Virus record (IMG/VR): IMGVR_UViG_3300027833_003138
Span: 62,001 to 126,000 of that record
Source of the DNA: a virus
Strand: one strand, 5' to 3'
Length of the DNA stretch: 64,000 nucleotides
The position numbers and the translations under genes were made by a program. The notes beneath the pieces are model-generated. The model saw only the letters and a program-made list of their open reading frames with translations, did no database searches and was not told the origin of the DNA. This document shows positions 1,299-62,103 of the stretch, one piece after another; position 1 is the stretch's first letter, and each line of letters opens with the position of its first letter.

Positions 1299-1494
1299 TA
1301 ATTGATATTCCCTTAGCTTCGCAATAAGCTACTGCGTAACCAGTCTTAAAGTTAAATCTTTCGGCAAACAAAACGAGCCCCATGATTACATAGGGCTCCC
1401 AAGTTAAAAATCCGAAATTAAGAAAAAGTATAAAACTAATTAAGAATAAAGGGCAGAACTTGTTGAGGGAATAATTTATTATTTCCTGTATCAC
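1291..1494 (-). CDS. Small membrane protein
   Basis: A 67-residue protein with a long hydrophobic stretch around residues 14-45 (FCPLFLISFILFLNFGFL, then PYVIMGLVLFAE), enough for one or two membrane helices. The polar C-terminus has no recognised motif. It overlaps its neighbours on both sides (4 bases upstream, 8 downstream) and so belongs to the leaderless early operon from 1727. It would act in the host inner membrane; superinfection exclusion and host-takeover roles are both possible and undecided. Confidence 0.65.
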   Translation of the reverse strand: MIQEIINYSLNKFCPLFLISFILFLNFGFLTWEPYVIMGLVLFAERFNFKTGYAVAYCEAKGISIND

Positions 1495-1727
1495 GAAGCC
1501 CGCGTTAGGGAGACAATGCGATCATGCCTAAAAGAACGAATTTCGTTTCTGGCAAAGCAAAAAGCTTTGAAGCCGATGTTGTTGCGCTCTTCGCTTTTGT
1601 TTCCAAAAGACTCCGTTAGCTCTGGGCGACCGATTTCGTAAGTCTTAACTGCGTTGTCAGCATTTTTATAAACAATAAAGTATTTTTGATTTTTCATTTT
1701 TTTGATTTTTGATTTTAAGTTAAACAT
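1491..1727 (-). CDS. WYL-domain-like small protein, first gene of leaderless operon
   Basis: A 78-residue protein. After the basic N-terminus, QKYFIVYKNADNAVKTYEI and then GFKAFCFARNEIRSFRHDRI resemble the strands of WYL-type SH3-like ligand-binding folds (pattern FxAxCxxRxExRxFxxDRI). There is no helix-turn-helix, so if it is a WYL protein it is a stand-alone sensor or anti-host factor. I take the ATG at 1727 because the promoter TTGACA/TATAAT puts +1 on that A. The next in-frame Met (residue 11, MKNQKYF) lacks a Shine-Dalgarno sequence. Family call is tentative. Confidence 0.55.
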   Translation of the reverse strand: MFNLKSKIKKMKNQKYFIVYKNADNAVKTYEIGRPELTESFGNKSEERNNIGFKAFCFARNEIRSFRHDRIVSLTRAS

Positions 1728-1733
1728 GCTTGT

Positions 1734-1762
1734 ATTATACTATATAATGGATTGTATGTCAA
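1734..1762 (-). promoter_or_regulatory. Consensus early sigma70 promoter (leaderless geometry)
   Basis: On the minus strand there is TTGACA (1757-1762), a 17-bp spacer and TATAAT (1734-1739): all 12 consensus positions match. Six bases separate the -10 box from the ATG at 1727, so +1 should coincide with the A of the start codon and leave no room for a Shine-Dalgarno sequence. Confidence 0.85.
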
Positions 1763-1771
1763 GGGAAAAAA

Positions 1772-2200
1772 TTAATTTCCTGTACTTCCGAATCCACCTT
1801 CTCCGCGATCTGTTTCGGATAGTTCATTAACCTCTTCTATGTCTACCCACGGAAGCTTCATTATAATTAATTGAGCTATCTTGTCTCCGTTTTTATATTT
1901 TTTTGAACCTAATGCGGGAACGCTCATTCTGATTTTGATTTCTCCTCTATAGCCAGAATCAATAACCCCGACGGAATTTCTAAGATAGTGATCCGTCTTT
2001 GATATGCTTGACCTCGGGAAGATGTATCCGGCATAACCTTCGGGTATCTCCATGGCCAAGTCTGTTCCATATTCAATAAAGTATCCATTGCTCATTGTTG
2101 TCGTTGCGACCAAATCAATTCCCGCATCGCCTTTCTTTGCGTAATTCGGGATTTTTGCTCGATCATTTATTTTTTTGATTTTTAATTTAATTTTGCTCAT
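1772..2200 (-). CDS. dut: dUTP diphosphatase
   Basis: A 142-residue trimeric-type dUTPase. All five motifs are present in order: DAGIDL (~24-29), PRSSIS, GVIDSGYRGEI, GDKIAQLII and the C-terminal RGEGGFGSTG arm at ~131-140. It hydrolyses dUTP to dUMP and PPi, keeping uracil out of phage DNA and supplying dTMP precursor, which fits the dCMP deaminase two genes upstream. It is the last gene of the operon that begins at 5167. A 74-base gap (2201-2274) precedes it, in which I see no clear promoter. No Shine-Dalgarno is visible before the ATG, only an A-rich leader. Confidence 0.95.
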   Translation of the reverse strand: MSKIKLKIKKINDRAKIPNYAKKGDAGIDLVATTTMSNGYFIEYGTDLAMEIPEGYAGYIFPRSSISKTDHYLRNSVGVIDSGYRGEIKIRMSVPALGSKKYKNGDKIAQLIIMKLPWVDIEEVNELSETDRGEGGFGSTGN

Positions 2201-2274
2201 TTTTTATTCTTTTTTGATATTTTTGTGTGTAGCACGCGAGGCTTTCTGTCGAAAATTTTTTTTCAGATTTGGGA

Positions 2275-2862
2275 TTATTTTATTCTGACCTCTTTCCATG
2301 AAACCAGTTTTGCCTTAACCAAATCCCTTATGTGTCTTTGTTTCTGGCTTAGTTGACTGTTGCCGCTCTTTACCTCTATGAAAGTTATCTCATCATCTCC
2401 GAATGAAATATAATCTATAGGCTGCCCCATGAACGAACACCTCTCGGGTTCAAAATCAAATTGATCCAGGAATGGTGCAAGCGTTTCTGCTATATGTCCA
2501 AGCCTAACCTCTCCGCTTTTCTTTTGCGACAAAACTTTTTTGCGAGCCAGCGTTTCTTCTTCTAATTTTTTTTCCAATTCTTGTTGCTTGCTTATTAATT
2601 CAGACTCTTTTCTTTTTAGCTCGGCATTACTTAATGATGTTATGCCTTGTTGTTTTGATATGCTTAATTGAAGCTCTTGTATAGTTCTATTTAAGTTCTT
2701 CTCTCTTTCTTCTATGGAAGACTCTCTGTCGTTCAGCTTTATTCGCAAGAATTCATTTTCTTCGCGAAGGCTTTCTTCCAGTTCTTTGTTGTGCTTTTCT
2801 TGTTTACCAAAAGCTAAATACAAAATAATACAAATTGAGATAAATAGTAAAGCTTCAATCAT
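2275..2862 (-). CDS. Membrane-anchored coiled-coil protein with Holliday-junction-resolvase-related domain
   Basis: A 195-residue protein in three parts: an N-terminal membrane helix (residues 2-18, EALLFISICIILYLAF), a long coiled coil (~22-110) rich in E/K/L, and a C-terminal domain from ~112. That domain begins SGEVRLGHIAETLAPFL and continues PIDYISFGDDEITFIEVKSG. The last two segments match the Asp...Glu-Val-Lys core of PD-(D/E)XK nucleases and the family annotated as Holliday-junction-resolvase-related. It may resolve recombination intermediates or process phage DNA at the membrane. It overlaps the dCMP deaminase gene by 8 bases and lies in the same operon as a RuvB-like ATPase. Confidence 0.8.
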   Translation of the reverse strand: MIEALLFISICIILYLAFGKQEKHNKELEESLREENEFLRIKLNDRESSIEEREKNLNRTIQELQLSISKQQGITSLSNAELKRKESELISKQQELEKKLEEETLARKKVLSQKKSGEVRLGHIAETLAPFLDQFDFEPERCSFMGQPIDYISFGDDEITFIEVKSGNSQLSQKQRHIRDLVKAKLVSWKEVRIK

Positions 2863-3292
2863 TTAACCGCTCCACTTCTACTCCTGCTTTTTTAAGCAAT
2901 TCTATGCCATCTTTGTTCTTGTACAGCTCATCATATACAACGCGAGCTATGTCTGATTGTATGATCATTTTGGAACACTCTATGCATGGTGATGCCGTGG
3001 TGTATATAGTTGCGCCTACGCTAGATTGGGTTGATTTCGCTAATTTAGTTATAGCATTACTTTCTGCATGAAGAACCTCTGGCTTGGTTTCTTGCTGTTT
3101 CCAGGAAAAATAAGGCACTTGCCTTTCGCATTGATTGCTAAAGCCTTTCGGGGTTCCATTAAAGCCGTCAGAAATAATAGCTTCGCCCTTAACTATCAAG
3201 CAACCAACTTGCTTTCTTTTAGCTTTGGATAGAGATGCCCAAATGTACGCCATTTTAATATAAGCTTTATCTAGCTCTAGCTGATTAGCCAT
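2855..3292 (-). CDS. dCMP (deoxycytidylate) deaminase
   Basis: A 145-residue zinc-dependent deaminase. The catalytic HAE is His75-Ala76-Glu77 and the second zinc motif is Pro102-Cys103-Ile-Glu-Cys106, in the usual order and spacing. It converts dCMP to dUMP, feeding dTMP synthesis together with the dUTPase in the same operon. Length and the N-terminal YIKMAYIWASLSKAKRKQVG helix are typical of phage and bacterial dCMP deaminases. A GGA element about 11 bases before the ATG may act as ribosome-binding site. It overlaps the next gene by 8 bases. Confidence 0.92.
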   Translation of the reverse strand: MANQLELDKAYIKMAYIWASLSKAKRKQVGCLIVKGEAIISDGFNGTPKGFSNQCERQVPYFSWKQQETKPEVLHAESNAITKLAKSTQSSVGATIYTTASPCIECSKMIIQSDIARVVYDELYKNKDGIELLKKAGVEVERLND

Positions 3293-3775
3293 TCACTTTT
3301 TCCAAACTTTAAAAGACTTTAACTTTTTTAATTCTTTTAATTCAACCTGAGAAACTTCTTCTTTTGTGCCGCTTCTTCTGTAAATTCGATACTTAGCTCT
3401 CTTCGCTAGATTAACAAAAGGTAAATCGTACCGAAGTTTTTGAGAACTTCCGCACCAAGACAGCAGTTCTTTTCTGTTGATGAATACAAAATCTTCAGTT
3501 CTTTCAAAAACAACAAAATGCGCGTCTCCGTGCAGCCAACCCGGGTTTCCATAGGAATTTTTAAACTCTAACCAAAGCCAATCTTCGTTTTGTTTTTTGT
3601 TTTTTATTTTTTTAAGGTCAATTTTAATAACAATAGGCTTTTCCTCTTTTCCTTTGCCTTTGAGCAAGTGCGAGACGTTTTTGCAGTTATCTGTAAAGCC
3701 TCTTAGTTTCTCAGGGGAGTAGCCCTTGGATTCAGCTAAAGCATCAAATGGATATTTATCTTTTGGGTCAGACAT
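3293..3775 (-). CDS. Conserved phage protein, possible PD-(D/E)XK-type nuclease
   Basis: A 160-residue protein. The central block DWLWLEFKNSYGNPGWLHG, followed by AHFVVFERTEDFVFINRKEL, has the look of a nuclease core (E-F-K at the end of a strand, then a GWL turn and a second strand). I cannot place all catalytic residues, so the enzymatic call is weak. The C-terminus is lysine-rich and could bind nucleic acid. A near-perfect AAGGA precedes the ATG by about 11 bases. It sits directly between the dCMP deaminase and a 64-residue gene with no spacer. Confidence 0.4.
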   Translation of the reverse strand: MSDPKDKYPFDALAESKGYSPEKLRGFTDNCKNVSHLLKGKGKEEKPIVIKIDLKKIKNKKQNEDWLWLEFKNSYGNPGWLHGDAHFVVFERTEDFVFINRKELLSWCGSSQKLRYDLPFVNLAKRAKYRIYRRSGTKEEVSQVELKELKKLKSFKVWKK

Positions 3776-3970
3776 TTAGCGAATCCTTGCGGGGGATGTG
3801 GTATGCACTACTTTGACTTTGTTAAAGTCTGGATCCTTCCATTTCTTTAATACGTCAACAAGTTTTTGTGCTCTAAATTCGGCGTCCTCCCTCGATTCGT
3901 AATTTCTATCCTCTGTTCTTCTTGAGTTTCTTGTAACTACATATACTTTTTTTTGTATTTTGTCTGTCAT
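3776..3970 (-). CDS. Small hypothetical protein
   Basis: A 64-residue basic protein (starts MTDKIQKKVYVVTRNSRR) with alternating hydrophobic strands and one amphipathic helix (EDAEFRAQKLVDVLKKW). No family recognised. It is spaced 5 bases from the AAA+ gene upstream and abuts the next gene downstream, so it is part of the operon. A TATAAT (complement of 3975-3980) lies 4 bases before its ATG with only a poor -35, so a weak internal promoter is possible. Confidence 0.55.
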   Translation of the reverse strand: MTDKIQKKVYVVTRNSRRTEDRNYESREDAEFRAQKLVDVLKKWKDPDFNKVKVVHTTSPARIR

Positions 3971-3975
3971 TTTAA

Positions 3976-4902
3976 TTATATTGATTGTAATAAGTTTTTA
4001 CCAAAATTGGTAATTTTTCTTTCTCCGTCTATTTGCATAAAGTTCTTTCGAAGTAAATATACTTCATGATCTCGTCTGAGAGAGGTCGGACTTAAGCCTG
4101 TTACCGCAGATAACGTTTGAAGCTTACAGCTCCCTCTGTCCGCAAGTATATCTAGTATCTGCTTCTCTGTGCAGGTTATTCCTTCTGGCAGGATACCGAG
4201 CAAGTCAATCAAAACATTAAAATCTGATGAATTGAACTCGTTTTTGTTTTCGCTTTCACAATACAATACGACTTCTTTTGATCTCATTACGGCGTTGCGA
4301 GCATTTCCCCTAACTGTTGAAGATAAAGATTTTAACGATTGTTCTGAGAAGCTTATTCCATCGCAATTAAGCTTTAAGATCTCCCCTAAATTGGAATCCG
4401 AGTACTGCTCGAAATCAACTGTAGTTAAACGATCTTTTAGCGGAGGAAATAATTTATCACTTTCTGTCGTTGCAAAAATGAATGTCTGCCTTGAGAAATC
4501 AAAGGTAAAAGTTTGCTCTTCAAATGTGAAATCTTTTGTGTTTGTTTTTTCTGTGTTGAAGATGGTCAAGAATGCCATTGTTAGATCTTTTGGAAGCGCG
4601 TGAGCTTCATCAAGAAGAATCGTAATTTCGTTATTCATGATCAATGGAATGAAAATCTGCGAAAAGAATTGCTCGTTGTTTTTTATCGTAGAACAATTAA
4701 GCTCTAGAAAGGGGCGCTTCGATCCATCTTTGTTTTTTAAGTTCTTTGCGAATTCTTTCGCAAATAAAGTTTTGCCAAGACCCTTAGCTCCAACCAAGTT
4801 AAGAAACGGACAGGTGCTTGTTGCTTCATAAGCTTTTAAATAGAAGTTTAATTTCTTCTTTACGTTGTCTTGACCTATTAAGTGTGAGAAATAATTATTC
4901 AT
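3976..4902 (-). CDS. RuvB-like AAA+ ATPase
   Basis: About 308 residues from the ATG at 4902, chosen over an upstream Met at 4929 because it overlaps the preceding stop and opens MNNYFSHLIGQDNV, the standard RuvB/clamp-loader opening. Walker A is GAKGLGKT (38-45) and Walker B ILLDEAH (95-101). A sensor-1 strand, FIFATTES, and LKDRL, carrying a probable arginine finger, follow. The C-terminus forms a winged helix (LADRGSCKLQTLSAVTGLSP) like RuvB domain III. It probably drives branch migration or loads a partner on DNA; a clamp-loader role is the main alternative. A resolvase-related gene is in the same operon, and no RuvA is seen. Confidence 0.75.
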   Translation of the reverse strand: MNNYFSHLIGQDNVKKKLNFYLKAYEATSTCPFLNLVGAKGLGKTLFAKEFAKNLKNKDGSKRPFLELNCSTIKNNEQFFSQIFIPLIMNNEITILLDEAHALPKDLTMAFLTIFNTEKTNTKDFTFEEQTFTFDFSRQTFIFATTESDKLFPPLKDRLTTVDFEQYSDSNLGEILKLNCDGISFSEQSLKSLSSTVRGNARNAVMRSKEVVLYCESENKNEFNSSDFNVLIDLLGILPEGITCTEKQILDILADRGSCKLQTLSAVTGLSPTSLRRDHEVYLLRKNFMQIDGERKITNFGKNLLQSI

Positions 4903-5167
4903 TTTCAAAAGATGTAAGTGCATATTCAATCTTGTCTTCTACGCTTTGAAGGTCAGAAAAGCCGGCGGATGTCGCCTTACCTTGTAAGTAATTAGCGTAC
5001 AGCCTGCTTTTGACCCACTCTTCGCTAACGGGTATAGAACTTACTTCTTGAGAGGCGAGATCCATAATCTCATCGACCGACAAGGAAACAATGCTTGAAC
5101 CACCTTTAACGCCGCTATTTCGACGCTTGCGTGGGGTGCCATCTTTGTTTAATGATATTTTTTTCAT
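4895..5167 (-). CDS. Small hypothetical protein, first gene of leaderless operon
   Basis: A 90-residue protein with a strongly basic N-terminus (KDGTPRKRRNSG) and an acidic, helical C-terminus. It is not recognised; the basic head could bind nucleic acid or the ATPase encoded next. Its stop overlaps the AAA+ start by 8 bases, suggesting the two products work together. The early promoter at 5176-5204 places +1 one or two bases before this ATG, so its message should have almost no leader. Confidence 0.65.
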   Translation of the reverse strand: MKKISLNKDGTPRKRRNSGVKGGSSIVSLSVDEIMDLASQEVSSIPVSEEWVKSRLYANYLQGKATSAGFSDLQSVEDKIEYALTSFENE

Positions 5168-5175
5168 ATAAGACT

Positions 5176-5204
5176 ATTATGCCACAAAACTCGGCGTTAG
5201 TCAA
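5176..5204 (-). promoter_or_regulatory. Early sigma70 promoter (near-leaderless geometry)
   Basis: On the minus strand: TTGACT (5199-5204), 17-bp spacer, CATAAT (5176-5181), then 8 bases to the ATG at 5167. Predicted +1 is at 5169-5168. This would drive the operon from 5167 to the dUTPase gene at 1772. Confidence 0.75.
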
Positions 5205-5213
5205 GAATAAAAA

Positions 5214-5393
5214 TTACTTTTTGTTTTTTAAATCAAGAAGATCTGTTTTAAGCTGCTCTATTGAGGATTTCTGATCTTCTATTAAATGCTTTAAGCTATC
5301 TATTTCATTAAGAGCCATGATGAGAACCTCGTCGGGCTCAAAAACCACTTCAAATTCATCATCTTCATCTTCGTTATCTTCTTTGTTGTTCAT
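5214..5393 (-). CDS. Small acidic coiled-coil protein
   Basis: A 59-residue protein found by reading the gap between neighbours. The N-terminus is very acidic (NKEDNEDEDDEFE). From about residue 24 a leucine-rich heptad helix runs to the C-terminus (LNEIDSLKHLIEDQKSSIEQL). Its ATG overlaps the upstream stop (ATGA). It ends 10 bases before the -35 box of the next operon. No family recognised; it is the likely last gene of the operon containing the tmRNA. Confidence 0.6.
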   Translation of the reverse strand: MNNKEDNEDEDDEFEVVFEPDEVLIMALNEIDSLKHLIEDQKSSIEQLKTDLLDLKNKK

Positions 5394-5689
5394 AGGTATT
5401 TAAAGTACACCTCTAGTAACCTAAAACCCTCTACAATTTTCTTTTGTTTTATTTTTGTTTTGCCTAAAGATTTTAATATTACTGGGTTTTTTTTGTTTGC
5501 TACAGAGAATAGTATTTTATTTAAAATGATTTTCCACTCAGAGTCAGACAGGCCCTCCGGCTTTTCTTTAATATTGTTAAGCTTAAAGTTTATTCTGTCT
5601 ATTACTAGATCGCAAAATTCTTTGCGGAAATCTTTTTTTGTTTTTTTATTTTTAGTAAATAAGTTTTTTATATTTTTTAAAATATTCAT
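5390..5689 (-). CDS. Hypothetical basic protein
   Basis: A 99-residue lysine-rich protein. The N-terminus (MNILKNIKNLFTKNKKTKK) could be a short amphipathic membrane-binding helix; the remainder is predicted helical. TTGGAAA, a possible ribosome-binding site, lies about 9 bases before the ATG. It abuts the gene at 5691 and overlaps the next start by 4 bases. I do not recognise it. Confidence 0.6.
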   Translation of the reverse strand: MNILKNIKNLFTKNKKTKKDFRKEFCDLVIDRINFKLNNIKEKPEGLSDSEWKIILNKILFSVANKKNPVILKSLGKTKIKQKKIVEGFRLLEVYFKYL

Positions 5690-5690
5690 T

Positions 5691-6110
5691 TTATTTCCAA
5701 TGTTTTTTTATTGTTTCTGTGTTTACGTTTTTTAAGCTCCAAATTTCACAAAAGAAATCATGCTTTGATCTCCAGTCCATGATGTTTTTAATTAGATATA
5801 TGTGACTAATGTTATCAATAGAACCAAAGTCAAAGAATTGAAACTCTAGCTCTAGTCTATTTTCGTAAATTAATTGAGATGTAATTTTTGGAGCTGATTG
5901 AGATAGTCCAGTTAATAAAACTGAATAAAAAAGATCTCCGTATGTAGAGTCTGTTTCGAAGTTGATTGATGTTAGTTGTTGTCCATTTTTTGCCTCTCCT
6001 GACATTAGCACTTTGTCTGCATAAAGATTGTCGAAAGATTCTGATAGTTTATAAAAAAATCCCTCTGCTTCGTCTTTATATATGTATCTATCTATTATGC
6101 TTTTATTCAT
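5691..6110 (-). CDS. Hypothetical protein downstream of tmRNA
   Basis: A 139-residue acidic protein, mixed alpha/beta, without motifs I can name (conserved-looking segments: DLFYSVLLTGLSQSAPK and RLELEFQFFDFGSIDN). It begins only 8 bases after the 3' CCA of the tmRNA on the same strand, so it is probably freed by 3' processing of a common transcript. Followed by the 5689 gene with a 1-base gap. Confidence 0.6.
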   Translation of the reverse strand: MNKSIIDRYIYKDEAEGFFYKLSESFDNLYADKVLMSGEAKNGQQLTSINFETDSTYGDLFYSVLLTGLSQSAPKITSQLIYENRLELEFQFFDFGSIDNISHIYLIKNIMDWRSKHDFFCEIWSLKNVNTETIKKHWK

Positions 6111-6118
6111 TTGATAAA

Positions 6119-6510
6119 TGGTGGACGCGGCGGGAGTCGAACCCGCGTCTTTAAATCTTAATAAGTGAGAATCTACAAGTTTAGTTAATTTTTTTTATAG
6201 TTGTGACATTAACATCTAACTTATTGTTTCAATTATTTGCCCCCGAATAATTCAGTGAACTACAGTTTATTAACAATAAAACCTTTTCTGTTTTTGCAGA
6301 TTGATGACCCCTCTCCCACCGTATCTGCGTCTGGCGGGGAGGGGTAGCAGGTGTTTAAGCTGCTAAGGCGAGCTGTTCAGCCTTTGGGCTGAAAGCTACA
6401 ACACGATTTTTATTCTTGCCATGTACAAGGTTGTGCCTTTTAACGAAGCCTGGCACCTCTTCGACTTGCATCATACTTAATCCAATTTAAATCAAATCCA
6501 GTACGCGCCC
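6119..6510 (-). ncRNA. ssrA: Transfer-messenger RNA (tmRNA), complete, CCA encoded
   Basis: A 392-nt one-piece tmRNA. The 5' end GGGCGCG (6510-6504) pairs over 7 bp with the 3' CGCGTCC. The third pair is G-U, the alanyl-tRNA synthetase identity element. The T arm is GCGGG-TTCGACT-CCCGC, and the gene ends ACCA at 6119. The 5' region carries the conserved CTGGATTTGA and GCAAGTCGAAG blocks. The mRNA-like part ends TTAGCAGCTTAA (stop 6357-6355), giving a tag C-terminus AEQLALAA, a protease signal like that of cellular tmRNAs. C-rich and G-rich blocks after the stop can form the next pseudoknot. The resume codon is uncertain: CGT (6405-6403), with A at -4, would give a 16-residue tag, while GCT (6396-6394) would give AFSPKAEQLALAA. 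Confidence 0.95.
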
Positions 6511-6545
6511 TAAACATTTACTTACTATCCTTTCAAAGATTTTAT

Positions 6546-6887
6546 TTAGAATAACTCCTCAGGGACATCTTCGTTAACATCTGCTTGCGCTTCAGCAACA
6601 ACTTCCTTGGTGGCTTCTTCCGCTACCTTTTCAACCTTTTTGGTTTCTGCGTCTTCAGATCTGTAAACTACGTAATCCGGAGCTCTTTCGTTCTTTTCCC
6701 TGCCCTTGTTGGTGAAAACAACAACCTTGATTGTTTCTTCAACACCTGGCATGGTTTCCATTTTGATTTGTCCTGAGAGGTACTTTTGGCTCTTTCCCGA
6801 ACGAACCCACAAGGCACCTAACTCTCGACTTTTCCACTCTGACTGCTTTTCTGTCATTTTTTCTGACTGTTTTTCTGTATTTTCCAT
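6546..6887 (-). CDS. DUF736-like conserved protein
   Basis: A 113-residue protein. Residues ~20-75 (KSRELGALWVRSGKSQKYLSG, then VVVFTNKGREKNERAPDYVVY) match a small beta-barrel family (DUF736-like) common in phages and plasmids and often encoded near DNA-metabolism genes. The flanks are low-complexity: repeated TEKQSE at the N-terminus and an acidic tail ending DVNEDVPEELF. The acidic hydrophobic tail recalls SSB-type tails, so single-strand binding is possible but unproven. It lies 35 bases upstream of the tmRNA on the same strand and is presumably co-transcribed. Confidence 0.6.
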   Translation of the reverse strand: MENTEKQSEKMTEKQSEWKSRELGALWVRSGKSQKYLSGQIKMETMPGVEETIKVVVFTNKGREKNERAPDYVVYRSEDAETKKVEKVAEEATKEVVAEAQADVNEDVPEELF

Positions 6888-6893
6888 AATTTT

Positions 6894-7064
6894 TTACTTG
6901 TTGTATAAATTTTTTAATTCTTCTATAAATAAAGGTTTTGCTCCTTGTGATAATTTGTTGTATTGTTTTTTTGCTCGAGAATAAACTCTCTTGCTTGTCG
7001 GATCCGCACTATTGGGATCAAAGTTTAAAATTTTTCTTATTTTCTTGGCTACTGTATTGTTCAT
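6894..7064 (-). CDS. Small basic phage protein, leaderless
   Basis: A 56-residue lysine-rich helical protein (MNNTVAKKIRKILNF at the N-terminus, AKKQYNKLSQGAKPLFIEEL towards the end). I start it at 7064 because a perfect promoter covers the region upstream and puts +1 at about 7065, excluding the longer frame from 7100. It is the first gene of the transcript that continues through the DUF736-like gene and the tmRNA. Similar short KKxYKxLS proteins occur in other phages, without known function. Confidence 0.6.
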   Translation of the reverse strand: MNNTVAKKIRKILNFDPNSADPTSKRVYSRAKKQYNKLSQGAKPLFIEELKNLYNK

Positions 7065-7071
7065 GGGTTTG

Positions 7072-7100
7072 ATTATAGTATATTTTTTTATTAATGTCAA
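7072..7100 (-). promoter_or_regulatory. Consensus early sigma70 promoter upstream of tmRNA operon
   Basis: On the minus strand: TTGACA (7095-7100), 17-bp spacer, TATAAT (7072-7077), then 7 bases to the ATG at 7064. All 12 consensus bases match. Predicted +1 is 7065-7064. It would transcribe the 56-residue gene, the DUF736-like gene, the tmRNA and the genes to 5214. Confidence 0.85.
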
Positions 7101-7118
7101 GTCTTTTAATTTAATTAT

Positions 7119-7241
7119 TTATCCATAAAAGTCTTCATCTTCTTTTGATCTCTTTAGCCAAAAGATTGATCCGATTATTGCGGCAACCAAAAAATCTCCA
7201 GGAAAGAATTCAAAATATGAACTTGCTATTGTTTCTATCAT
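7119..7241 (-). CDS. Small single-span membrane peptide
   Basis: A 40-residue frame overlapping the stop of the upstream gene (ATGA). Residues ~14-25 (GDFLVAAIIGSIFW) are hydrophobic and are followed by a positive then acidic tail (LKRSKEDEDFYG), the pattern of a short inner-membrane peptide with its C-terminus in the cytoplasm. No homologue recognised. Its existence rests on the coupled start and sensible topology. Confidence 0.5.
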   Translation of the reverse strand: MIETIASSYFEFFPGDFLVAAIIGSIFWLKRSKEDEDFYG

Positions 7242-7783
7242 CTAAATTCTTTTCTTAATAGTCTCCACCTGTCTGAGTCAATTGGTTTATTTCCATTGTC
7301 AATGGCATGCAGCATTTCTATGACTTCGTCGATAGTATTATAAATATATTTATGAGGAAACATTCCAAGCATCCATAGTGGAGTTTTGGATTTTCCACCC
7401 TCCATGCTTACAAAAACGGGCTTTTTCTCTCTAACTGCCGTGACAATTTCTTCTGCACTTCCCCAACTCGCAACCTCAGGAACGAGGTGAGCAATTATAA
7501 AATCACTTCTGTCCACTAAGTTTAGATCGTATGCGCGAACCGTTTTCATTCTTTCTGTTACTCGGTCATACTGCTTTGTTTTCATCCATGTTTCCATTTC
7601 TTGTCTAGACGATTCGTCTTCCTCTACATCTTTTATGAATGGTTTTTTATATGGATCGAAGCAGGTAATGCTTAGTGGCTCAAGGTCTTCTGCAGCTTTA
7701 TCTCTCCAGTTGCGACCACTTACATATTGCATATGCCCTACTAAATAACACTTTGTTTTATATAATAGATTCTTTTCCGTCAT
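7238..7783 (-). CDS. Nucleoside 2-deoxyribosyltransferase-like protein, leaderless
   Basis: A 181-residue protein. CYLVGHMQYVSGRNWRDKA, then TCFDPYKKP, then ADYD/NLVDRSDFIIAHL-type segments (here AYDLNLVDRSDFIIAHL) and GSAEEIVTAVREKKPVFVS follow the order of nucleoside 2-deoxyribosyltransferase-like folds, which exchange bases on deoxynucleosides or hydrolyse deoxynucleotides. The family's catalytic Glu could be in GSAEE. It fits the nucleotide-pool theme of the region. The promoter at 7790-7818 puts +1 exactly on the A of this ATG. It is coupled to the 40-residue membrane peptide. Confidence 0.7.
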   Translation of the reverse strand: MTEKNLLYKTKCYLVGHMQYVSGRNWRDKAAEDLEPLSITCFDPYKKPFIKDVEEDESSRQEMETWMKTKQYDRVTERMKTVRAYDLNLVDRSDFIIAHLVPEVASWGSAEEIVTAVREKKPVFVSMEGGKSKTPLWMLGMFPHKYIYNTIDEVIEMLHAIDNGNKPIDSDRWRLLRKEFR

Positions 7784-7789
7784 TCATTC

Positions 7790-7818
7790 AGTATACAAAA
7801 TACTAAATCAAAAGTCAA
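7790..7818 (-). promoter_or_regulatory. Early sigma70 promoter (leaderless geometry)
   Basis: On the minus strand: TTGACT (7813-7818), 17-bp spacer, TATACT (7790-7795), then 6 bases to the ATG at 7783, so +1 should be the A of the start codon. The -35 box overlaps the stop codon of the fibre gene at 7815, so the early and late transcription units abut here. Confidence 0.82.
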
Positions 7819-8505: not shown

Positions 8506-10863
8506 TTAAGTTGTGATCGTTAACGTCTTTGTCGTGGAATTATAGGAAAATGTCGGAACAGTATCTGTGAATACCGCATTCGCTGGCACCGCTGTTTTTA
8601 CATTATCAAAAGCCCAATCAGAGCTTATTGAAGTTGTAGTTGCTCCGTTCGTTGGGGTGCTGCTTATAGCTCTGTGTGTATTTGTATCTGTAAATACCGC
8701 ATTCGCTGGCACCGCTGTTTTTACATTATCAAAAGCCCAGTCAGAACTTATTGAAGTTGTAGTTGCTCCGTTTGCTGGGGTGCTACTTATACCTCTCCAA
8801 GTGTCTACATTATCCAAAACATTTTGCCCATTCCAAAATAGATTTCCTCCTGAAGCGTAAAGACGGTTTGTTGTTGTTGATGGCACAGTGGAATTTCTTA
8901 GATAAAGAATTCCGTTTAAGTCTAACTTTTCATTTGGACTCGTAGTACCAATACCTACATTGCCTTTTGATTTAACTGTGAATATAGTGCTATTGCTTGT
9001 GGAAATGTCTCCTCTAACGTTAATAAGGTCAATTTCGTCAGCTCTAGTGGATGAATCGATAAACAAGCCGCCAGGTGAATTATTTAACTGAGCGTTTATG
9101 CAAAATTTATGAGACGTGACTGCATTGCCAATACCTACTGTACCGTCACCGTTCATGACCATTATTGGGACGGCATTTGAGTTTCTTATTTGAAGTTGGT
9201 TTGCGGAATATACTGGGGTTAAGAAAAAATCTGCCGGATCAGATGTATTGGCTGTGTTCCTTAAACGTATCTGAGATCTTGTATTATTATTACCCTCGAT
9301 GTGCAGCGCGCAGTTGGGACTCGTAATACCAATGCCTACATTACCTACAGAGGTGATGCGCATTTTTTCCATTGGTGTTGACGAAGAAGTCCCTGCGGCA
9401 CGAGTTCCAAGGGTTAAAGCTCCTCCATAGTCTCCATCCGTATTGTTTTCTTTTATGATTGATATTTGACCAAAGGTGGTTACGTCATTACCTGAATTGT
9501 ATCTACCTCCAAAAATAATACCAGCACCAGCATTTGAATTGTAAGCGTCTGTTCCGATAAAAGTTGCATTTGAAATATTATCGAATGTGGTGTCGTTTGC
9601 GCCATACACTGTTAATGGTGCGATTGGATTCGTAGTACCAATACCTACATTGCCGTTTGAAAGAATGCGAACCTTTTCAGAGTCATTGGTTTTGAATCGC
9701 ATACTGTTGTTGCTATGATCGTACCAAACTGCCCCAACATTACCATCTTCAGCATCTGCCATTTCAAGAATACTATAAGAATCACTTTTGGCTTTTATTT
9801 GTAGCAAGGCTTGCCCATCTGGATTTTCAAATCGACCCAAACTTGTTGGAGTTGCTGAATTAATTTTAACGTGTAATTTACCGCTGGGATCCGTAGTACC
9901 AATACCTACATTGCCGTCGGCATCTATAGTCATGGACTCTCCGAAACCGGCTTTAGATCTAAATATAATATTTCCTCCGTTACCTGTTGTATTGTTCGAT
10001 ATCAAAAGCTCATCTTTATCGTCAACCCTAAGGGTGTCTTTGGGGTTACCTAAGGAATCTTTCCACCTTATCTTGCTGTTGTTGGAAAGAGAAAGGTTTC
10101 CGTTTATATCTAATTTATCGGAAGGGCTTGTTGTGTTTATTCCAATATTTCCCCCATCCTCAATAAAAATTCCATTTCCGCCGTCATCTTCAAGGCTTAA
10201 TCCTGCAGAGTCTCTAGCCCTTAACTTGTCAGAGAATATATATTTACCATCGGCAATCCCCAAATTTTCACTTAAATCCCAAGAGTCTGTAGCGTTGCTC
10301 CATAAAATAGTTTTATCTGTTGTTCCTTTAAGGGTTATTCCTCCCTGATCTGCAGTTGTATCTGTAGCCGAATCCAAAACAGCCAACTCTATATTTTTAT
10401 CTTCAACCCGAACCGTAGAGGTTTCCATGATCACTCGATCCCCAGAAACATACAGATTTCCATTGATTTGTGCATTTCCCTCCACGAACAAGCCCGAGCG
10501 AAATACCGCATCTTGATCCACATGCAGAGTTCCAGAAAGCTGAGTGTTTTCTCCGACATTTAAATCGTCTTCAACATACAACTTGGATTTCAATACCGCA
10601 TCTTGATCCACATGCAGAGTTCCAGAAAGCTGAGTGTTTTCTCCGACATTTAAATCGTCTTCAACATACAACTTGGATTTCAATACCGCATCTTGATCCA
10701 CATGAAGAGTTCCAGAAAGCTGAGTGTTTTCTCCGACATTTAAGTCATCCCTAACGTCTAGATGGCTATAAACCGAAACTCTTCCTCCTGTTGATTGTAT
10801 ATTATCTATCCATAGGATATTACCGCTGAATGTATCTGCATTAAATATTAGATCTGAAATCAT
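8506..10863 (-). CDS. Tail fibre / adhesin with tandem beta repeats
   Basis: A 785-residue repetitive protein. Near the N-terminus there are three 30-residue repeats (LNVGENTQLSGTLHVDQDAV type), coded by 90-bp units at 10502-10760. The centre has many GNVGIGTTSPxxKL repeats, each about 60-70 residues apart and typical of beta-structured phage and bacterial fibres. The C-terminus has two copies of SSTPxNGATTTSISSDWAFD, coded by 123-bp units, a common tail-fibre end. The ATG at 10863 is 9 bases after the late-type motif AAGTGTA. It would form a trimeric side fibre; no enzymatic domain is seen. Confidence 0.8.
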   Translation of the reverse strand: MISDLIFNADTFSGNILWIDNIQSTGGRVSVYSHLDVRDDLNVGENTQLSGTLHVDQDAVLKSKLYVEDDLNVGENTQLSGTLHVDQDAVLKSKLYVEDDLNVGENTQLSGTLHVDQDAVFRSGLFVEGNAQINGNLYVSGDRVIMETSTVRVEDKNIELAVLDSATDTTADQGGITLKGTTDKTILWSNATDSWDLSENLGIADGKYIFSDKLRARDSAGLSLEDDGGNGIFIEDGGNIGINTTSPSDKLDINGNLSLSNNSKIRWKDSLGNPKDTLRVDDKDELLISNNTTGNGGNIIFRSKAGFGESMTIDADGNVGIGTTDPSGKLHVKINSATPTSLGRFENPDGQALLQIKAKSDSYSILEMADAEDGNVGAVWYDHSNNSMRFKTNDSEKVRILSNGNVGIGTTNPIAPLTVYGANDTTFDNISNATFIGTDAYNSNAGAGIIFGGRYNSGNDVTTFGQISIIKENNTDGDYGGALTLGTRAAGTSSSTPMEKMRITSVGNVGIGITSPNCALHIEGNNNTRSQIRLRNTANTSDPADFFLTPVYSANQLQIRNSNAVPIMVMNGDGTVGIGNAVTSHKFCINAQLNNSPGGLFIDSSTRADEIDLINVRGDISTSNSTIFTVKSKGNVGIGTTSPNEKLDLNGILYLRNSTVPSTTTNRLYASGGNLFWNGQNVLDNVDTWRGISSTPANGATTTSISSDWAFDNVKTAVPANAVFTDTNTHRAISSTPTNGATTTSISSDWAFDNVKTAVPANAVFTDTVPTFSYNSTTKTLTITT
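8561..8800. repeat. Two tandem 123-bp repeats in fibre gene
   Basis: Copies begin at 8561 and 8684 (both GTATCTGTRAATACCGC at the start) and remain nearly identical for over 100 bp. They code for two 41-residue copies of the fibre's C-terminal segment. The few differences are mostly synonymous, which points to fairly recent duplication. Confidence 0.85.
10502..10760. repeat. Three tandem 90-bp repeats in fibre gene
   Basis: Units begin at 10502, 10592 and 10682 (each AATACCGCATCTTGATCC). The first two are identical over 90 bp as read; the third has one early difference and diverges in its last 20 bases. Each unit codes for one 30-residue beta-coil of the fibre. Copy number could vary between isolates by slippage or recombination. 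Confidence 0.9.
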
Positions 10864-10872
10864 GATTTTATT

Positions 10873-10880
10873 TACACTTG
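10873..10880 (-). promoter_or_regulatory. Candidate late promoter motif CAAGTGTA
   Basis: Minus-strand CAAGTGTA lies with 9 bases between GTGTA and the ATG of the fibre gene at 10863, the same spacing as at 945, 16019 and 20703. No -35 consensus seen. Confidence 0.45.
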
Positions 10881-10887
10881 TTTTCTT

Positions 10888-13800
10888 TTATCTTACTGCG
10901 TGAGTATGAATTCTGTACCCAGGTTTTGAGGGAGAAGATAATATAACATAGTAAGAGTCTCTAGAAACGCCTGAAATTAAATATGGAATGCAGTTGGATT
11001 CTGATTCTACTGCAGTTGAGACTGAAGGTATCGCATGAAAGGGGTGGGGGTAAAAAATTTCATATAAATCAGTTCCTTCTGGAATATCTGTCGTGAAGGA
11101 TTGGGTAGTTGTCTTGTTTACTGAGGATTGCCCCGTAGGCCTGGCGTTAATATGAAGTTTGTATTCATCATCCTTTAATTCTGATCCAAAATTTACCGCA
11201 AATCGAAATTCATTCAACCCGGAAATCATATATGGAACGATTGGTCCACCGTTTGAATTTTCTAAAGACAGGGTTACTGCAGGTTTTTCACCGAATGTTT
11301 TCGGGAAATCTAGATAGTAAGAATCCTTGCCTTTATTTAGGGATGCTACAAAGGTAATAACTTCGTCAGAACCTCCGAATACTCTTTCCCAGTGACCGTC
11401 TTCACCGGTTGTAAAAGCTTTTTCAAGGTAAGAGTTTCCCGTTACGGAAAGTTCTCCAATGGGGTTTTCTGTGTTGATTCCGAAATAACCTTCATTGGTT
11501 AGTCTAGCTTGCTCGATGCCAGAGGTTGAAAAAGAAATGAAGTCATCCTCTGTCTCGCTTAGTAGAATTTTTGACTGACCGCCTGCCTCTATCGAAATTT
11601 CATCTTCTCTAAACCTTACAAAGGTGTCTTCATCTTCATAATGATATATATATTCCCCTACATGAATGTCTCCTGTGACTTTTTCGTCTCCATAGATTAA
11701 GGAATTTCCTGACTGAGTGAAATCCCCAGTTAGGTGATAATCCCCAAGCATTCTCATGTCTCCGTATCTCCAGGAGTTTCCAGTTATTTGAAAGTCTCCT
11801 AACAGGTTAGAGTTTCCTATTTTATAAGAATCTCCTTTTTGTCTGTGGTAGCCTGTGTGAGTTAAGTCTCCAACTATTAGTTTGTCTCCATATAACCAAG
11901 AGTCTCCGGTTTGAGCGAAATTTCCCGTTAGATAAAAATTGCCATCCATTCGCATATCCCCGAATCTCCAAGAGTCTCCGGTTATTCGAAGGTCTCCCAG
12001 CAGGTTAGAATCTCCTATTCTGTAAAAGTTCCCTTCTTGCCTGTGGTAGCCTGTATTGGTTATGTCCCCCAAGAAGCAAGAATCTCCAGAAACATGTAGT
12101 GTATAGAGAGGGTTTACTGTTCGAACGTGGTCAAAATAAACGAGCCCTGAAATATTGAAGTGGCTTACTTCCCAGAAATTTCCAGAAATAATTTTCTCTG
12201 CAACTACTCTGTATTTTGAATAAGTTTCTGGGTGATATTTGTCAAGGGTGAAGGTGGAGGCGACCTCTTTACTTTTGTAGTCTGAGGCTTGTAGTCCAGA
12301 AATATTATGTATGGTTTTCCATTCTGTTCCATTGTTTGATGCAACAATCTTTAAGTCTTCCGCGCAGTTTTTCAAATCTTTCCTAAATAAAGAAAAGCCT
12401 TTGTAGTGAAACGGTTCTTCAAAATTTACTTGATGCCAAGCTCCCCCCATCTCTCTATGTATTTCGTCTGGAGAGAGATTATGTCCATCTAGGGATATAT
12501 CAGAACCCCAATTTTGCTGCGACTCAGATGTGTTTGAGTTATAATATCCTGAAGGTTCATATATAGGAAATGACTTTAAGGAAGTTGTTGTTTTTGCTTG
12601 CTCTGAATTTGAGAAATCTATTATTGCTGGATTTAATCTATCAATAACGTTGATTTTTCCGCTTAAATGTTGATGTCCTGCGTGCGAGGATTGATAATAA
12701 AATTCACCCAAATTTGCAGCCTTAAAGTTAAGCTCTCCAGATGCTTCATTCGCGATCACCTGCCCTGTTGAATTTTTAATGCTTATGGACGCGTGTGGCG
12801 TTTGGTTCGAGAACACTAATCTCTGTCCTTTTTTAGCCTCAATCAGAGGGTCTGGCCCAAGCGCGTCTCCACTAAAGTAATAATTTTCTGAATCTACATT
12901 ATGTAATGTATAATTTTTTGTAAGTGGATTTAAAATATCAATCGTTCCGCTGATACTCTCATGCCCAGAGGTTGTCGATTGATAATAAAAGTTTCCTGTA
13001 GAGTTTGGTAAAAATGAAGTTTGACCTTGGTTTTCTAATACTTGTATGTTGTCGTTGTGATCTTTTATAACAACAGGGTGTCCGCTATTGAGGTTTGAGA
13101 AGTTTAAAACGTCTCCCGCTGTAGCTTGAATGTTGGGGTTGGTTCCGCTGGCATCTCCGGAGAATAAATAATTACCTGAATTGCCTGAGTTTAAAAAATA
13201 ATTATATATATCTGAGTCTGCAATAATGATATTGCCACTCATTTTTTCGTGACCCTCTAAGCTGCATTGGTAGAAAAAACTTCCAGTGTTAATTGCTTCA
13301 AGATTAGTTATTCCAGAAACTTCCGAAACTAATTCATTATTTGCGCTATCTTTTATCGATAATGGGTGAGCTTTTGTTTGGTTGGAAAAGGTTAAAGAGT
13401 CGCCGACTTGAACCTGGATATTTGGGTCAAGCCCTGTTGCGCCTCCACTAAATAGGTAGCTACCTCCGTTTTCGTTTATTAAATAATATTCGTGCTCATC
13501 TTCTGATATTGCTCGTGGGTCAATGCCTCCTCCATAACTGTAAGAGCTGTACCCCCCCGACCTTCTTGGGAAATCCATGAATACATCTTTTATTATTCTT
13601 CTGTCTGTAAAGTCTAGGCCGACTCCCATTTTTTCAAATAAGCCAGTTTCTCCAACAAAAATATTTCCGCTGATATCTCCCGTTTGTGTGATATCTATAA
13701 CTTCATTTATGTAAATTGTACTTTGAAAAGTGCAAACATCTGCAAAGGTTTTCTCTCCGCTAATTAATTGGTTGCCAGTTAAGAAAACAGCATTCGCTCC

Positions 13801-14030: not shown

Positions 14031-15969
14031 ATCTAGTTGTCAAAAATTCACCTGTTCTTTCGAAAAATTGAGGTATATCCTGCTCGGATTCTTGAGCTTC
14101 ACATCTAGGTTTTATGGTATTTTTTTGTTCATCAAGCTCCCATAGCTGAAGGGTTGGTAAAGAGGTAACAAATTCAGGCCTATAGGAATCGTTTCCTGGT
14201 TGGAAGGTTCTGAAAATCAATTTATCTCCTAGGTCGTCAAACCATTGAGCATGGTAATCAACTTTTTCTCCGAGTCTGTGAGTGCCCTCTGTGCTTGTGC
14301 AACAATGTATCGTATGCTTTGTTGTTAGATTTGAACCCAGTTTTAACATAAAGGATTTTTTGGTTATATTTGAAATTATATATGGAACTACATACTTTCC
14401 GCCTTCTATGTTGATTGAAATATTTGGAGGCTCATCATACTCAAGGGGGAAAAAGATTTCTTGGGTTGGTTCATCTTCTTTTGGTTGAAAATAAAATCTC
14501 TGCATTCCGTGTCTGTTAGCTCCTGGATCCATAGGAGAAACGTAAGGGAAATCATCATAGCTTAATTCTATTTTTCCTTGCATTATTGAGGAACATATTG
14601 CTGTCGTATGAACTGTGTATTCATCAGACGGAAGTATATTCGAGAATTGCATATAAAATTCGTGGCGATTTCCGTCTTGAAGTATAAATGGAACAATAAT
14701 GTTTCCGTTACAATTTTCAACACTTACATTTAAGATGGGCTTCTCTTTAAAGGTTTTGGGTAAATTTATATGATACTTATCCTCCCCTCCTTGAATGACT
14801 GTTTTAAATGTGACTGTCTCGTCGTTACCTCCGAATACCTTGTTGAATCTTTTGCTGAATTCATCATAAACAAAAACGTTTTCCAGGAAGGAGTTCCCTG
14901 TCACAGACAACTCTCCCATTGGTGTTTTATTATTAATTGCCAGTAGCCCTTCGTTGGTTAGCCTAGCATGCTCTTCTCCGGAGGTAAAAAGCGAAATATG
15001 ATTTGATCCTGATTCGTTTAATAATATTTTACAATATTCACCCGCCTCTAAGCGCGCTTCATTGTTTTTGAATTGAATAAAGGTGTCTCGATCTTCGTAA
15101 TGGTATACATATTCCCCTACGTAGATATCTCCTGCAGTTTTTTTATCTCCCAGTATGAAAGAGTTGCCTAGTTGTGTGAAGTCGCCAGTAATTGAGAAAT
15201 CTCCTGACATCCTCAAGTCACCATATCTCCAAGAGTCTCCGGAAATGCGGAATTCGCCCAATAAGTCCGAGTCGCCTATTCTGTAAAGGTCGCCATTTTG
15301 GCTTTCATTTCCTGTGTGCGCGATGTCTCCTAAAATTAACTCGTTTCCATATAGAGAACGGTCCCCCGTTTGAGAAAAATTTCCCGTTAGATAAAAATCA
15401 CCATCCATTCGCATGTCCCCGAATCTCCAAGAGTCTCCGGTTATTCGAAGGTCTCCAAGCAGGTTAGAATCTCCTATTCTGTAAAAGTTCCCTTCTTGCC
15501 TGTGGTAGCCTGTGTTTGTTATGTCCCCGAGAAAACAAGAATCCCCCGAGATATGGAAGCGGTAAGAGGGTTCGCCATGTCTTTCGTGAAATAATGTTGA
15601 TACTCCAATATTTTGAAAAAGACCAGATGTTCCGACGAAAATGTTTCCAGAAATGTCTCCAGTGAGCGTATTATCTAAGACTTCGTTTACATTTGTTCTG
15701 CTCAAAAAAGTACATGGATCCGCAAAAATTTTACCGCCACTTATTAATTGCTTACCTGTTGATAGAAAGCTCTTATCGAGGATTGAGGATTTTAAGTGAT
15801 TATAAGAGATATTTTCGTTAGAAAGGTTTTCTCTTGCAATCATGAAGGATGCGTTATTGTCCCCGCTGCCAGCTGGCGTAATTTTGGCTTGATGCGGAAA
15901 CGGATGCACCAAATAGTCGGAGTGGAGAATAAGGGATTCTTTTAATTCTGAGATTTTACTATTTGGCAT
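14029..15969 (-). CDS. Tail adhesin paralogous to the 10888 gene, without cupredoxin/discoidin part
   Basis: About 646 residues from the ATG at 15969 (MPNSKISELKE), preferred over the GTG at 15990, which lies inside the promoter motif. The attachment domain, the GD/TGN beta shaft and the linker (YHYEDxDTF, SFLENVF) parallel the 1036-residue neighbour. The cupredoxin and discoidin domains are absent. The C-terminus carries two to three H-lectin-like modules (PKTFKEKPILNVSVEN, FPLEYDEPPNISINIEG). A 160-bp shaft stretch (15379-15540) is nearly identical to 11919-12084. Probable receptor-binding fibre with a different tip, made by duplication. Confidence 0.75.
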   Translation of the reverse strand: MPNSKISELKESLILHSDYLVHPFPHQAKITPAGSGDNNASFMIARENLSNENISYNHLKSSILDKSFLSTGKQLISGGKIFADPCTFLSRTNVNEVLDNTLTGDISGNIFVGTSGLFQNIGVSTLFHERHGEPSYRFHISGDSCFLGDITNTGYHRQEGNFYRIGDSNLLGDLRITGDSWRFGDMRMDGDFYLTGNFSQTGDRSLYGNELILGDIAHTGNESQNGDLYRIGDSDLLGEFRISGDSWRYGDLRMSGDFSITGDFTQLGNSFILGDKKTAGDIYVGEYVYHYEDRDTFIQFKNNEARLEAGEYCKILLNESGSNHISLFTSGEEHARLTNEGLLAINNKTPMGELSVTGNSFLENVFVYDEFSKRFNKVFGGNDETVTFKTVIQGGEDKYHINLPKTFKEKPILNVSVENCNGNIIVPFILQDGNRHEFYMQFSNILPSDEYTVHTTAICSSIMQGKIELSYDDFPYVSPMDPGANRHGMQRFYFQPKEDEPTQEIFFPLEYDEPPNISINIEGGKYVVPYIISNITKKSFMLKLGSNLTTKHTIHCCTSTEGTHRLGEKVDYHAQWFDDLGDKLIFRTFQPGNDSYRPEFVTSLPTLQLWELDEQKNTIKPRCEAQESEQDIPQFFERTGEFLTTR

Positions 15970-15985
15970 GACGGTCTTTTGTAAA

Positions 15986-15993
15986 TACACTTA
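15986..15993 (-). promoter_or_regulatory. Candidate late promoter motif TAAGTGTA, leftward
   Basis: Minus-strand TAAGTGTA lies 16 bases before the ATG at 15969. It is arranged back to back with the rightward motif at 16002-16009, so one 30-bp region would serve two divergent structural transcripts. Confidence 0.45.
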
Positions 15994-16001
15994 ATTGATA
16001 A

Positions 16002-16009
16002 AAGGTGTA
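16002..16009 (+). promoter_or_regulatory. Candidate late promoter motif AAGGTGTA, rightward
   Basis: AAGGTGTA is followed by 9 bases and then the ATG at 16019. The spacing equals that at three other late genes, so this transcript may also be leaderless or nearly so. Confidence 0.45.
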
Positions 16010-16018
16010 CTCTATTTA

Positions 16019-60381: not shown

Positions 60382-61328
60382 TCTGTGATATACTCTGTTA
60401 TGTCTCTCTGCGCTACAAGCTGCTCTATATTATCCAACAGGAAGGGGTAGAGCTTGTACGCCGGATTCCTTAATGTGTTTTTTATTATTCTAGACGCGCT
60501 TTTTATGTCATAATGCAATGGGAATACAAACTTTTCGTTAAATAACCAACGTATAAGATAAGAATATTGTACGGTTCCGTATTGCTCGCAATATTTTGAA
60601 AAGGTGAACGTGGGCTTTCCTAGGTGGTAGGGTATATATCTAACCCCAGAATCAATACCAAAGAAAGCTATACATTTACTTGATGCGTAAAATATTTCCT
60701 CAAGAGATAGAGAGAGAAAAGATATGTTTTCTAAGTTTTCGTTCATCAGTTTTGAGTATTTGTGCTCCGACTTTTCGTCGTAAAGTATTACTAGGTGAAA
60801 GTCTTGTATTATGTTTTTTATTAATTTATTTATATACCAATCTTCCATGTTAGAGTCAGCACCGTCCCTGGCATATAGATGTGCAAGCACAAATTTGTCA
60901 GGGAGCTCTACTCCGGTTTTTGGTTGAACCTGTGGCGCGGGGAAAAAATTAAAATTCTTGAACCAGTCGTACTCATGATTTAGCCATTCCAGTGAGTCTA
61001 TATGAAGATCGTAAAACTTGTCATAAGAGGATTCCATCCTTGCTCTAATCTCATCTGGGACATTATTTATATTTCCGGGATGAAGTTCTTCGGGAAAATT
61101 AGAACATTTGATTTTGAATTTATTGTATTTTTTGTCCTTAATAATAAATGTGTTTTCAAAATGAGACGGCCACATGGCGTTTAGTATATTTGATTGGGCT
61201 CTGTTTCCTTCTGTATCTGAAAAAAGATCTATAGTACAATCTGGGTGAAGCTGTTTTATTGCAGGTATAAACCTGTTTGCTGCAAAATGGTCGCCCAAAC
61301 CCCCTTCCATCCTTACGGAAACTCTCAC
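60378..61328 (-). CDS. Family 9-like glycosyltransferase (ADP-heptose type)
   Basis: A 316-residue protein from a GTG at 61328 overlapping the preceding stop. RMEGGLGDHFAANRFIPAI is the GT9 N-terminal motif (G-x-G-D...A...L/I) and IAFFGIDSGVRYIPYHLGKP the C-terminal one (G.DSG..H...G.P). The second segment of the GT9 family, usually N-x-x-K-R-W, is not clear here. Second GT9 in this operon and the first one in transcription order, directly after the winged-helix gene. Confidence 0.75.
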   Translation of the reverse strand: MRVSVRMEGGLGDHFAANRFIPAIKQLHPDCTIDLFSDTEGNRAQSNILNAMWPSHFENTFIIKDKKYNKFKIKCSNFPEELHPGNINNVPDEIRARMESSYDKFYDLHIDSLEWLNHEYDWFKNFNFFPAPQVQPKTGVELPDKFVLAHLYARDGADSNMEDWYINKLIKNIIQDFHLVILYDEKSEHKYSKLMNENLENISFLSLSLEEIFYASSKCIAFFGIDSGVRYIPYHLGKPTFTFSKYCEQYGTVQYSYLIRWLFNEKFVFPLHYDIKSASRIIKNTLRNPAYKLYPFLLDNIEQLVAQRDITEYITE

Positions 61329-61633
61329 GACACCCTCCCGTTTACTAGAACCTTGCCCTCTATCACAAATGTTTTTAGCTGGGTTAACATCTTGTTTGCA
61401 GTCTTTCTTCTTTTTATGTGGTTGTTTGTGGAAAGCCTCTTCATGCTTGCCGATATCTTGCCGTAGGACATGCCCCCTAGGTCTTCTGCTATTTTGTTAT
61501 TGGAAAAGAATATAGGTTTGCCGTGCCCCCCTTTCGTCAATAAATAGCTGTATACTACTAAATCGTTTCCTATTAATCTTCCACTAATCACATCTTCTTG
61601 TATTACCATTGGTATCTGTATAAATTTTCTCAT
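61325..61633 (-). CDS. Winged-helix (helix-turn-helix) protein, leaderless
   Basis: About 102 residues from ATG 61633; an upstream in-frame Met lies inside the promoter. GNDLVVYSYLLTKGGHG and NKIAEDLGGMSYGKISASMKRLSTN form a winged helix of replication-initiator/regulator type; the rest is a basic tail. The promoter at 61641-61669 puts +1 one base before the start codon. It is the first gene of the leftward glycan operon, and the inverted repeats upstream of its promoter are candidate operators, so it may regulate itself and the divergent early genes. Confidence 0.65.
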   Translation of the reverse strand: MRKFIQIPMVIQEDVISGRLIGNDLVVYSYLLTKGGHGKPIFFSNNKIAEDLGGMSYGKISASMKRLSTNNHIKRRKTANKMLTQLKTFVIEGKVLVNGRVS

Positions 61634-61640
61634 GCCGACA

Positions 61641-61669
61641 ATAGTACCATACGATTTGTTTTTCGTCAA
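61641..61669 (-). promoter_or_regulatory. Early sigma70 promoter of the glycan operon (near-leaderless)
   Basis: On the minus strand: TTGACG (61664-61669), 17-bp spacer, TACTAT (61641-61646), then 7 bases to the ATG at 61633. Predicted +1 is 61634. Weaker -10 than its sister promoters. Confidence 0.75.
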
Positions 61670-61771: not shown

Positions 61772-61800
61772 TTGACATTATTGAGTTTTGATGATATACT
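61772..61800 (+). promoter_or_regulatory. Consensus early sigma70 promoter, rightward (leaderless geometry)
   Basis: TTGACA (61772-61777), 17-bp spacer, TATACT (61795-61800), then 6 bases to the ATG at 61807, so +1 is the A of the start codon. It drives the small unknown gene, dNMP kinase, sigma factor, SSB and glycosyltransferase. Confidence 0.85.
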
Positions 61801-61806
61801 GTTCTC

Positions 61807-62103
61807 ATGAAATTTATAGATTTAAGTGATGATAGATACTTTTTAATAAAGTGTTCTGACTGGTCGGTGATTCTATCCGCCGAAGATGAGGTCGAAGCCT
61901 GCACCGTAGCCTTAACGGGAATGCTGGAAAAAAGGGGTAAGCAGTTAAAACTCTCATCAGTAATGATATCCAACGAACTAAAGCATGATGTCATGGATGA
62001 AGACTATGATGAGCTAGTAGCTTACCACTCTGTATCAAGAATGCTCGCCAATGCAGGAATGCACGAGCTTTCATCTAATATGAAAAGTATATTTGGAGCA
62101 TAA
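61807..62103 (+). CDS. Small hypothetical protein, leaderless
   Basis: A 98-residue protein with a strand-rich front (FIDLSDDRYFLIKCSDWSVI) and a helical end (YHSVSRMLANAGMHELSSNM). No family recognised. First gene of the rightward early operon, 5 bases before the dNMP kinase gene. Its message should begin at the start codon (see promoter 61772-61800). Confidence 0.6.
   Translation: MKFIDLSDDRYFLIKCSDWSVILSAEDEVEACTVALTGMLEKRGKQLKLSSVMISNELKHDVMDEDYDELVAYHSVSRMLANAGMHELSSNMKSIFGA

Follow-up and report, generated by a model that had tools for sequence, protein, structure and literature searches.

In a marine phage known from the virus record IMGVR_UViG_3300027833_003138, sigma70-type promoters are placed so close to start codons that the resulting messages would be leaderless, and this layout, present at about 20 operon heads, is probably an adaptation to a Verrucomicrobiota host in which Shine-Dalgarno (SD) motifs are scarce. 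The window analyzed here is a stretch of 64,000 nucleotides, corresponding to bases 62001–126000 of the 140,314-bp record, and the record outside the window was read as stretches. Coordinates below are those of the window unless the record is named.

The record has a GC content of 36% and contains genes for a tail sheath, rIIA/rIIB, dUTPase, dCMP deaminase, a clamp loader, and a tmRNA. The tail sheath and the other genes of the record indicate that this is a contractile-tailed phage. Its relatives are also marine. For the DNA polymerase clamp loader, at least 52 relatives were found in IMG/VR and none among named phages, and the tail sheath has only distant relatives among named phages, nearly all of which are Pseudomonas phages. 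Consequently, the named phages gave no host. At locus L013, the tail sheath gene has two genes for DUF2827 proteins nearby (8507–9586 and 10373–11479), and glycosyltransferase-like genes are also present.

Promoters adjacent to start codons

Six sites in the window had been proposed to place a consensus promoter immediately before an ATG. All six are found where they were predicted, each composed of TTGAC followed by A, T, or G, a 17-bp spacer, and a -10-like hexamer, with the ATG 6–8 nt further on. The number of nucleotides between the -10 hexamer and the ATG is referred to as the gap. These sites and their genes are as follows.

1734..1762, minus strand: sigma70-type promoter TTGACA-N17-TATAAT, gap 6
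1491..1727, minus strand: 78-aa ORF, predicted leaderless; weak match to phrog_6785 (function unknown)
5176..5204, minus strand: sigma70-type promoter TTGACT-N17-CATAAT, gap 8
4895..5167, minus strand: 90-aa ORF, heads the clamp-loader operon
3976..4902, minus strand: DNA polymerase clamp loader (phrog_168, E=8e-16); start set from relatives and overlapping the end of the 90-aa ORF
7072..7100, minus strand: sigma70-type promoter TTGACA-N17-TATAAT, gap 7
6894..7064, minus strand: 56-aa ORF
7790..7818, minus strand: sigma70-type promoter TTGACT-N17-TATACT, gap 6
7238..7783, minus strand: 181-aa ORF; a second ATG lies at 2 nt, in another frame
61641..61669, minus strand: weaker promoter-like site TTGACG-N17-TACTAT, gap 7, the weakest of the six
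61325..61633, minus strand: 102-aa ORF, read from the ATG after the TTGACG site
61772..61800, plus strand: sigma70-type promoter TTGACA-N17-TATACT, gap 6
61807..62103, plus strand: 98-aa ORF

Based on promoter spacing, +1 is predicted to coincide with the first base of the start codon or to lie no more than 2 nt away; for gaps of 8 or more, a leader of 1–3 nt is possible.

A scan of the full record against randomized sequence shows that the pattern is more extensive than first described. Near-consensus sites number 54 in the record, whereas order-2 Markov resamples have 15.4 +/- 4.5. At 27 of the sites, an ATG follows the -10 hexamer by 5–9 nt, versus a mean of 1.5 and a maximum of 5 in 60 resamples. 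AT-rich sequence could yield promoter-like strings near ATG codons by chance, and the low GC content of the record does raise this background; however, the excess over the resamples, together with the conservation of the layout in orthologues described below, leads us to reject chance, which has a negligible probability. The claim that all strong early promoters share the layout holds for the six sites of the window and is too broad for the record as a whole. Thirty genes have a sigma70-type site within 60 nt upstream of the ATG, 21 of them at 5–8 nt, and the other nine are spaced by 12–51 nt, including rIIA at 35 nt. The layout is therefore dominant, not universal.

The genomic setting of these sites is also distinctive. 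None of 25 sigma70-adjacent genes abuts an upstream gene on the same strand, versus 84 of 154 genes that carry neither this motif nor the GTGTA motif discussed below, indicating that the sigma70 sites stand at operon heads. The sigma70-adjacent promoters cluster at 0–42 kb and 63–70 kb of the record, beside replication and small-ORF genes.

Conservation of the layout in related phages

The conservation of the layout was probed using a family sample composed of the clamp-loader relatives L021–L072 (0.83 Mb). Among 320 sites located at most 60 nt before an ATG-initiated ORF in these relatives, 221 have a gap of 5–9 nt, 20 a gap of 10–19 nt, and 77 a gap of 20–59 nt. For comparison, other viral contigs were sampled using loci from a pattern scan of viral_contigs at gap 14–16; among the matches listed, 18 of 83 ATG-proximal sites have a gap of 5–9 nt. 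This comparison shows that the layout occurs in other phages too, less often.

Orthologues of the window genes were then collected without requiring a promoter. The promoter is found at gap 6 in 14 of 14 orthologues of the gene starting at 1727, at gap 6–10 in 31 of 33 orthologues of the gene starting at 5167 (gap 8 in 26), and at gap 6–8 in 26 of 26 orthologues of the gene starting at 7064. The gene starting at 7783 is unsuited to this test because its start is kept in 4 of 19 relatives and the rest appear to start elsewhere. Identity to the window is 90–100% in the -35 hexamer, 87–93% in the -10 hexamer, and 47–64% in the spacer.

The orthologues also permit evaluation of the alternative that the promoters are real and the messages carry ordinary short leaders, with transcription starting elsewhere or a later in-frame ATG being used. 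Some genes do have a further ATG downstream, such as that at codon 11 of the gene starting at 1727. However, the adjacent ATG is kept in the orthologues, and third positions account for 55 of 83, 50 of 63, and 79 of 164 differences in codons 2–10 of three window genes. Since these codons vary mostly at third positions, coding begins at the adjacent ATG, which is indirect evidence that translation starts there, and this bias, apparent from codon 2 onward, likewise makes mis-annotated starts unlikely. The distribution of gaps in the family, in which 10–19 nt is rare and 5–9 nt dominates, also argues against short leaders, and we consider this alternative rather unlikely. The proposal that the phage systematically begins its early messages without leaders is thus well supported at the sequence level by the excess in the record, conservation across the clade, coding constraint directly after the ATG, and position at operon heads.

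The GTGTA motif upstream of late-type genes

A second motif was identified upstream of genes. The most enriched 5-mer is GTGTA, which is seen 16 times versus 2 expected and lies 14–17 nt before the ATG. Besides the tail sheath gene, it precedes a number of other genes that are late-type or unassigned. Its occurrences include the following.

10873–10877, minus strand: GTGTA 14 nt before the ATG of a 785-aa ORF (8506–10863); present in both relatives aligned there
16005–16009, plus strand: GTGTA 14–17 nt before an ATG
Record positions 129877, 127036, 132492, and 138768, among others, plus strand: GTGTA 14–17 nt before an ATG

GTGTA is kept at 14 nt in 8 of 8 sheath orthologues and at 17 nt in 6 of 6 orthologues of another gene, and in both cases the neighboring bases vary. 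Fourteen genes in the record bear the motif, only one of which abuts an upstream gene, and no conserved -35 partner of GTGTA was found. A role for GTGTA as a signal before tRNA and tmRNA genes was rejected, as the motif is not conserved there. A divergent GTGTA pair occurs at 15948–16020, between a 653-aa gene on the minus strand and a 380-aa gene on the plus strand, and a similar TACAC...GTGTA arrangement is present in L035, L036, L037, and L041.

These features suggest that GTGTA may be a candidate phage-specific late promoter from which messages would have a very short leader or none; alternatively, it may be a translation signal. By extension, the entire clade might run a programme largely free of leaders and SD motifs, in which sigma70 early promoters and GTGTA late promoters would both start the message at, or a few nucleotides from, the first AUG. 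This extension is tentative, and we regard it as possible rather than probable.

Shine-Dalgarno scarcity, the candidate host, and known leaderless systems

The use of SD motifs was assessed with a single crude method. By this method, the SD5 motif frequency is 0.029 in the phage, 0.020 in the family, and 0.033 in the candidate host MAG (400 kb sampled), versus 0.211 in an E. coli stretch, 0.139 in T4, and 0.189 in other viral contigs. The rates of strong SD motifs in the phage and family are near background, indicating that the phage does not rely on SD motifs for leaderless or leadered genes. The cultured Verrucomicrobia phage P8625 is also SD-poor (3 of 52 annotated genes). In three P8625 genes (L435; 5448, 10772, and 15594), TTGACA was read by eye approximately 36 nt before the start codon, a position that is likewise compatible with leaderless messages. 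In published work, the bacteria listed as SD-scarce include Akkermansia and a further strain of Verrucomicrobia (PMC10783764), and Cappable-seq assigned 10% of TSS in Akkermansia muciniphila to the leaderless class, versus 0.4% in E. coli (PMC4782308).

The candidate host was identified from a search of 84,980 species genomes (one per species), which yielded only two relatives, one in an Opitutae MAG and one in a Verrucomicrobiales MAG. Short contigs can be mis-binned in MAGs, and binning is no proof of host. On the Opitutae contig, promoters are laid out similarly, with gaps of 9–10. The Opitutae MAG is the candidate host referred to here, and no sigma70 site at gap 5–9 was found in 400 kb of its sequence. 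The class to which this MAG belongs was sampled with 57 genomes, in which the strict layout was counted 27 times at gap 5–8 and 10 times at gap 14–17, versus 2 in the reversed-pattern control. The tmRNA gene offers a further comparison.

6119–6510, minus strand: phage tmRNA, tag GKNKNRVVAFSPKAEQLALAA

This tag had no match in genome_contigs and is unlike the tags of the MAG tmRNAs, GEEQFALAA and ADSNELALAA. Phage tmRNAs need not match the tmRNA of the host. A tmRNA is present in many, not all, close relatives of the phage, with variant tags. The host phylum is likely, though not certain, to be Verrucomicrobiota: the assignment is drawn from two binned contigs, and the phage and MAG tmRNAs carry different tags.

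In the proposed mechanism, the host RNA polymerase at sigma70-type promoters would begin transcription at the A of the AUG of the first gene or 1–2 nt upstream of it, and the leaderless messages would head about 20 short, probably early operons. Translation would presumably proceed by direct recognition of the 5'-terminal AUG, with the messages presumably being used in early infection. The layout could instead be a phage-specific strategy for early infection that takes advantage of 70S initiation at a time of disturbed host initiation. The clustering of sigma70-adjacent promoters beside replication and small-ORF genes is in keeping with such a strategy, as is the finding that IF2 goes up and IF3 goes down during phiYS40 infection (PMC3594737). 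However, SD scarcity covers the whole phage as well as the candidate host, a species of the host phylum has leaderless TSS without phage infection, and late-type genes carry GTGTA at a comparable position, making this strategy quite unlikely. Leaderless messages most likely follow a habit of the host, as the phage, the candidate host, and P8625 are all SD-poor and a tenth of Akkermansia starts are leaderless; the layout would then be an adaptation to an SD-scarce Verrucomicrobiota host and not a phage device against host translation.

Systematic use of leaderless early messages had also been called unusual for a phage. This view is weakened by the SD scarcity of the phage, its clade, the candidate host, and P8625, and by the leaderless phage mRNAs already known. 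The leaderless class of Thermus thermophilus phage phiYS40 is reportedly that of middle and late genes, unlike the class described here, which is of sigma70 type and probably early. Similar to the present phage, phiYS40 is a tailed phage with leaderless mRNAs (PMC3594737) and a host phylum rich in leaderless genes. For phage lambda, a leaderless mRNA cited in PMC3160421 likewise starts at the AUG; it is one message only, in a host that uses SD motifs, in contrast to the genome-wide layout found here. The '-10 region adjacent to ORF' expression pattern of Deinococcus-Thermus (PMC12340547) also has a -10 that precedes the ORF by a few bp and gives leaderless mRNA. It involves cellular genes for which a -10 alone can suffice, whereas the phage has the full TTGACA-17-TATAAT. 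Akkermansia muciniphila, which likely shares its phylum with the host, has TATAAT-type promoters and about 10% of its TSS at start codons; it differs from the present case in being a gut bacterium and not a marine phage. Given the lambda, phiYS40, and Deinococcus-Thermus precedents, the array is not new in kind; leaderless phage messages are already known, and this phage adds a well-populated case.

Together, the phage and its relatives form a sizeable natural collection of phage messages predicted to be leaderless. The collection is conserved across numerous contigs and allows the distance between promoter and AUG to be studied from sequence alone. The findings suggest a candidate late promoter motif, GTGTA, and gene callers tuned to SD motifs may misplace starts in such phages. 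They also suggest that phages mirror their hosts in being scarce in SD motifs.
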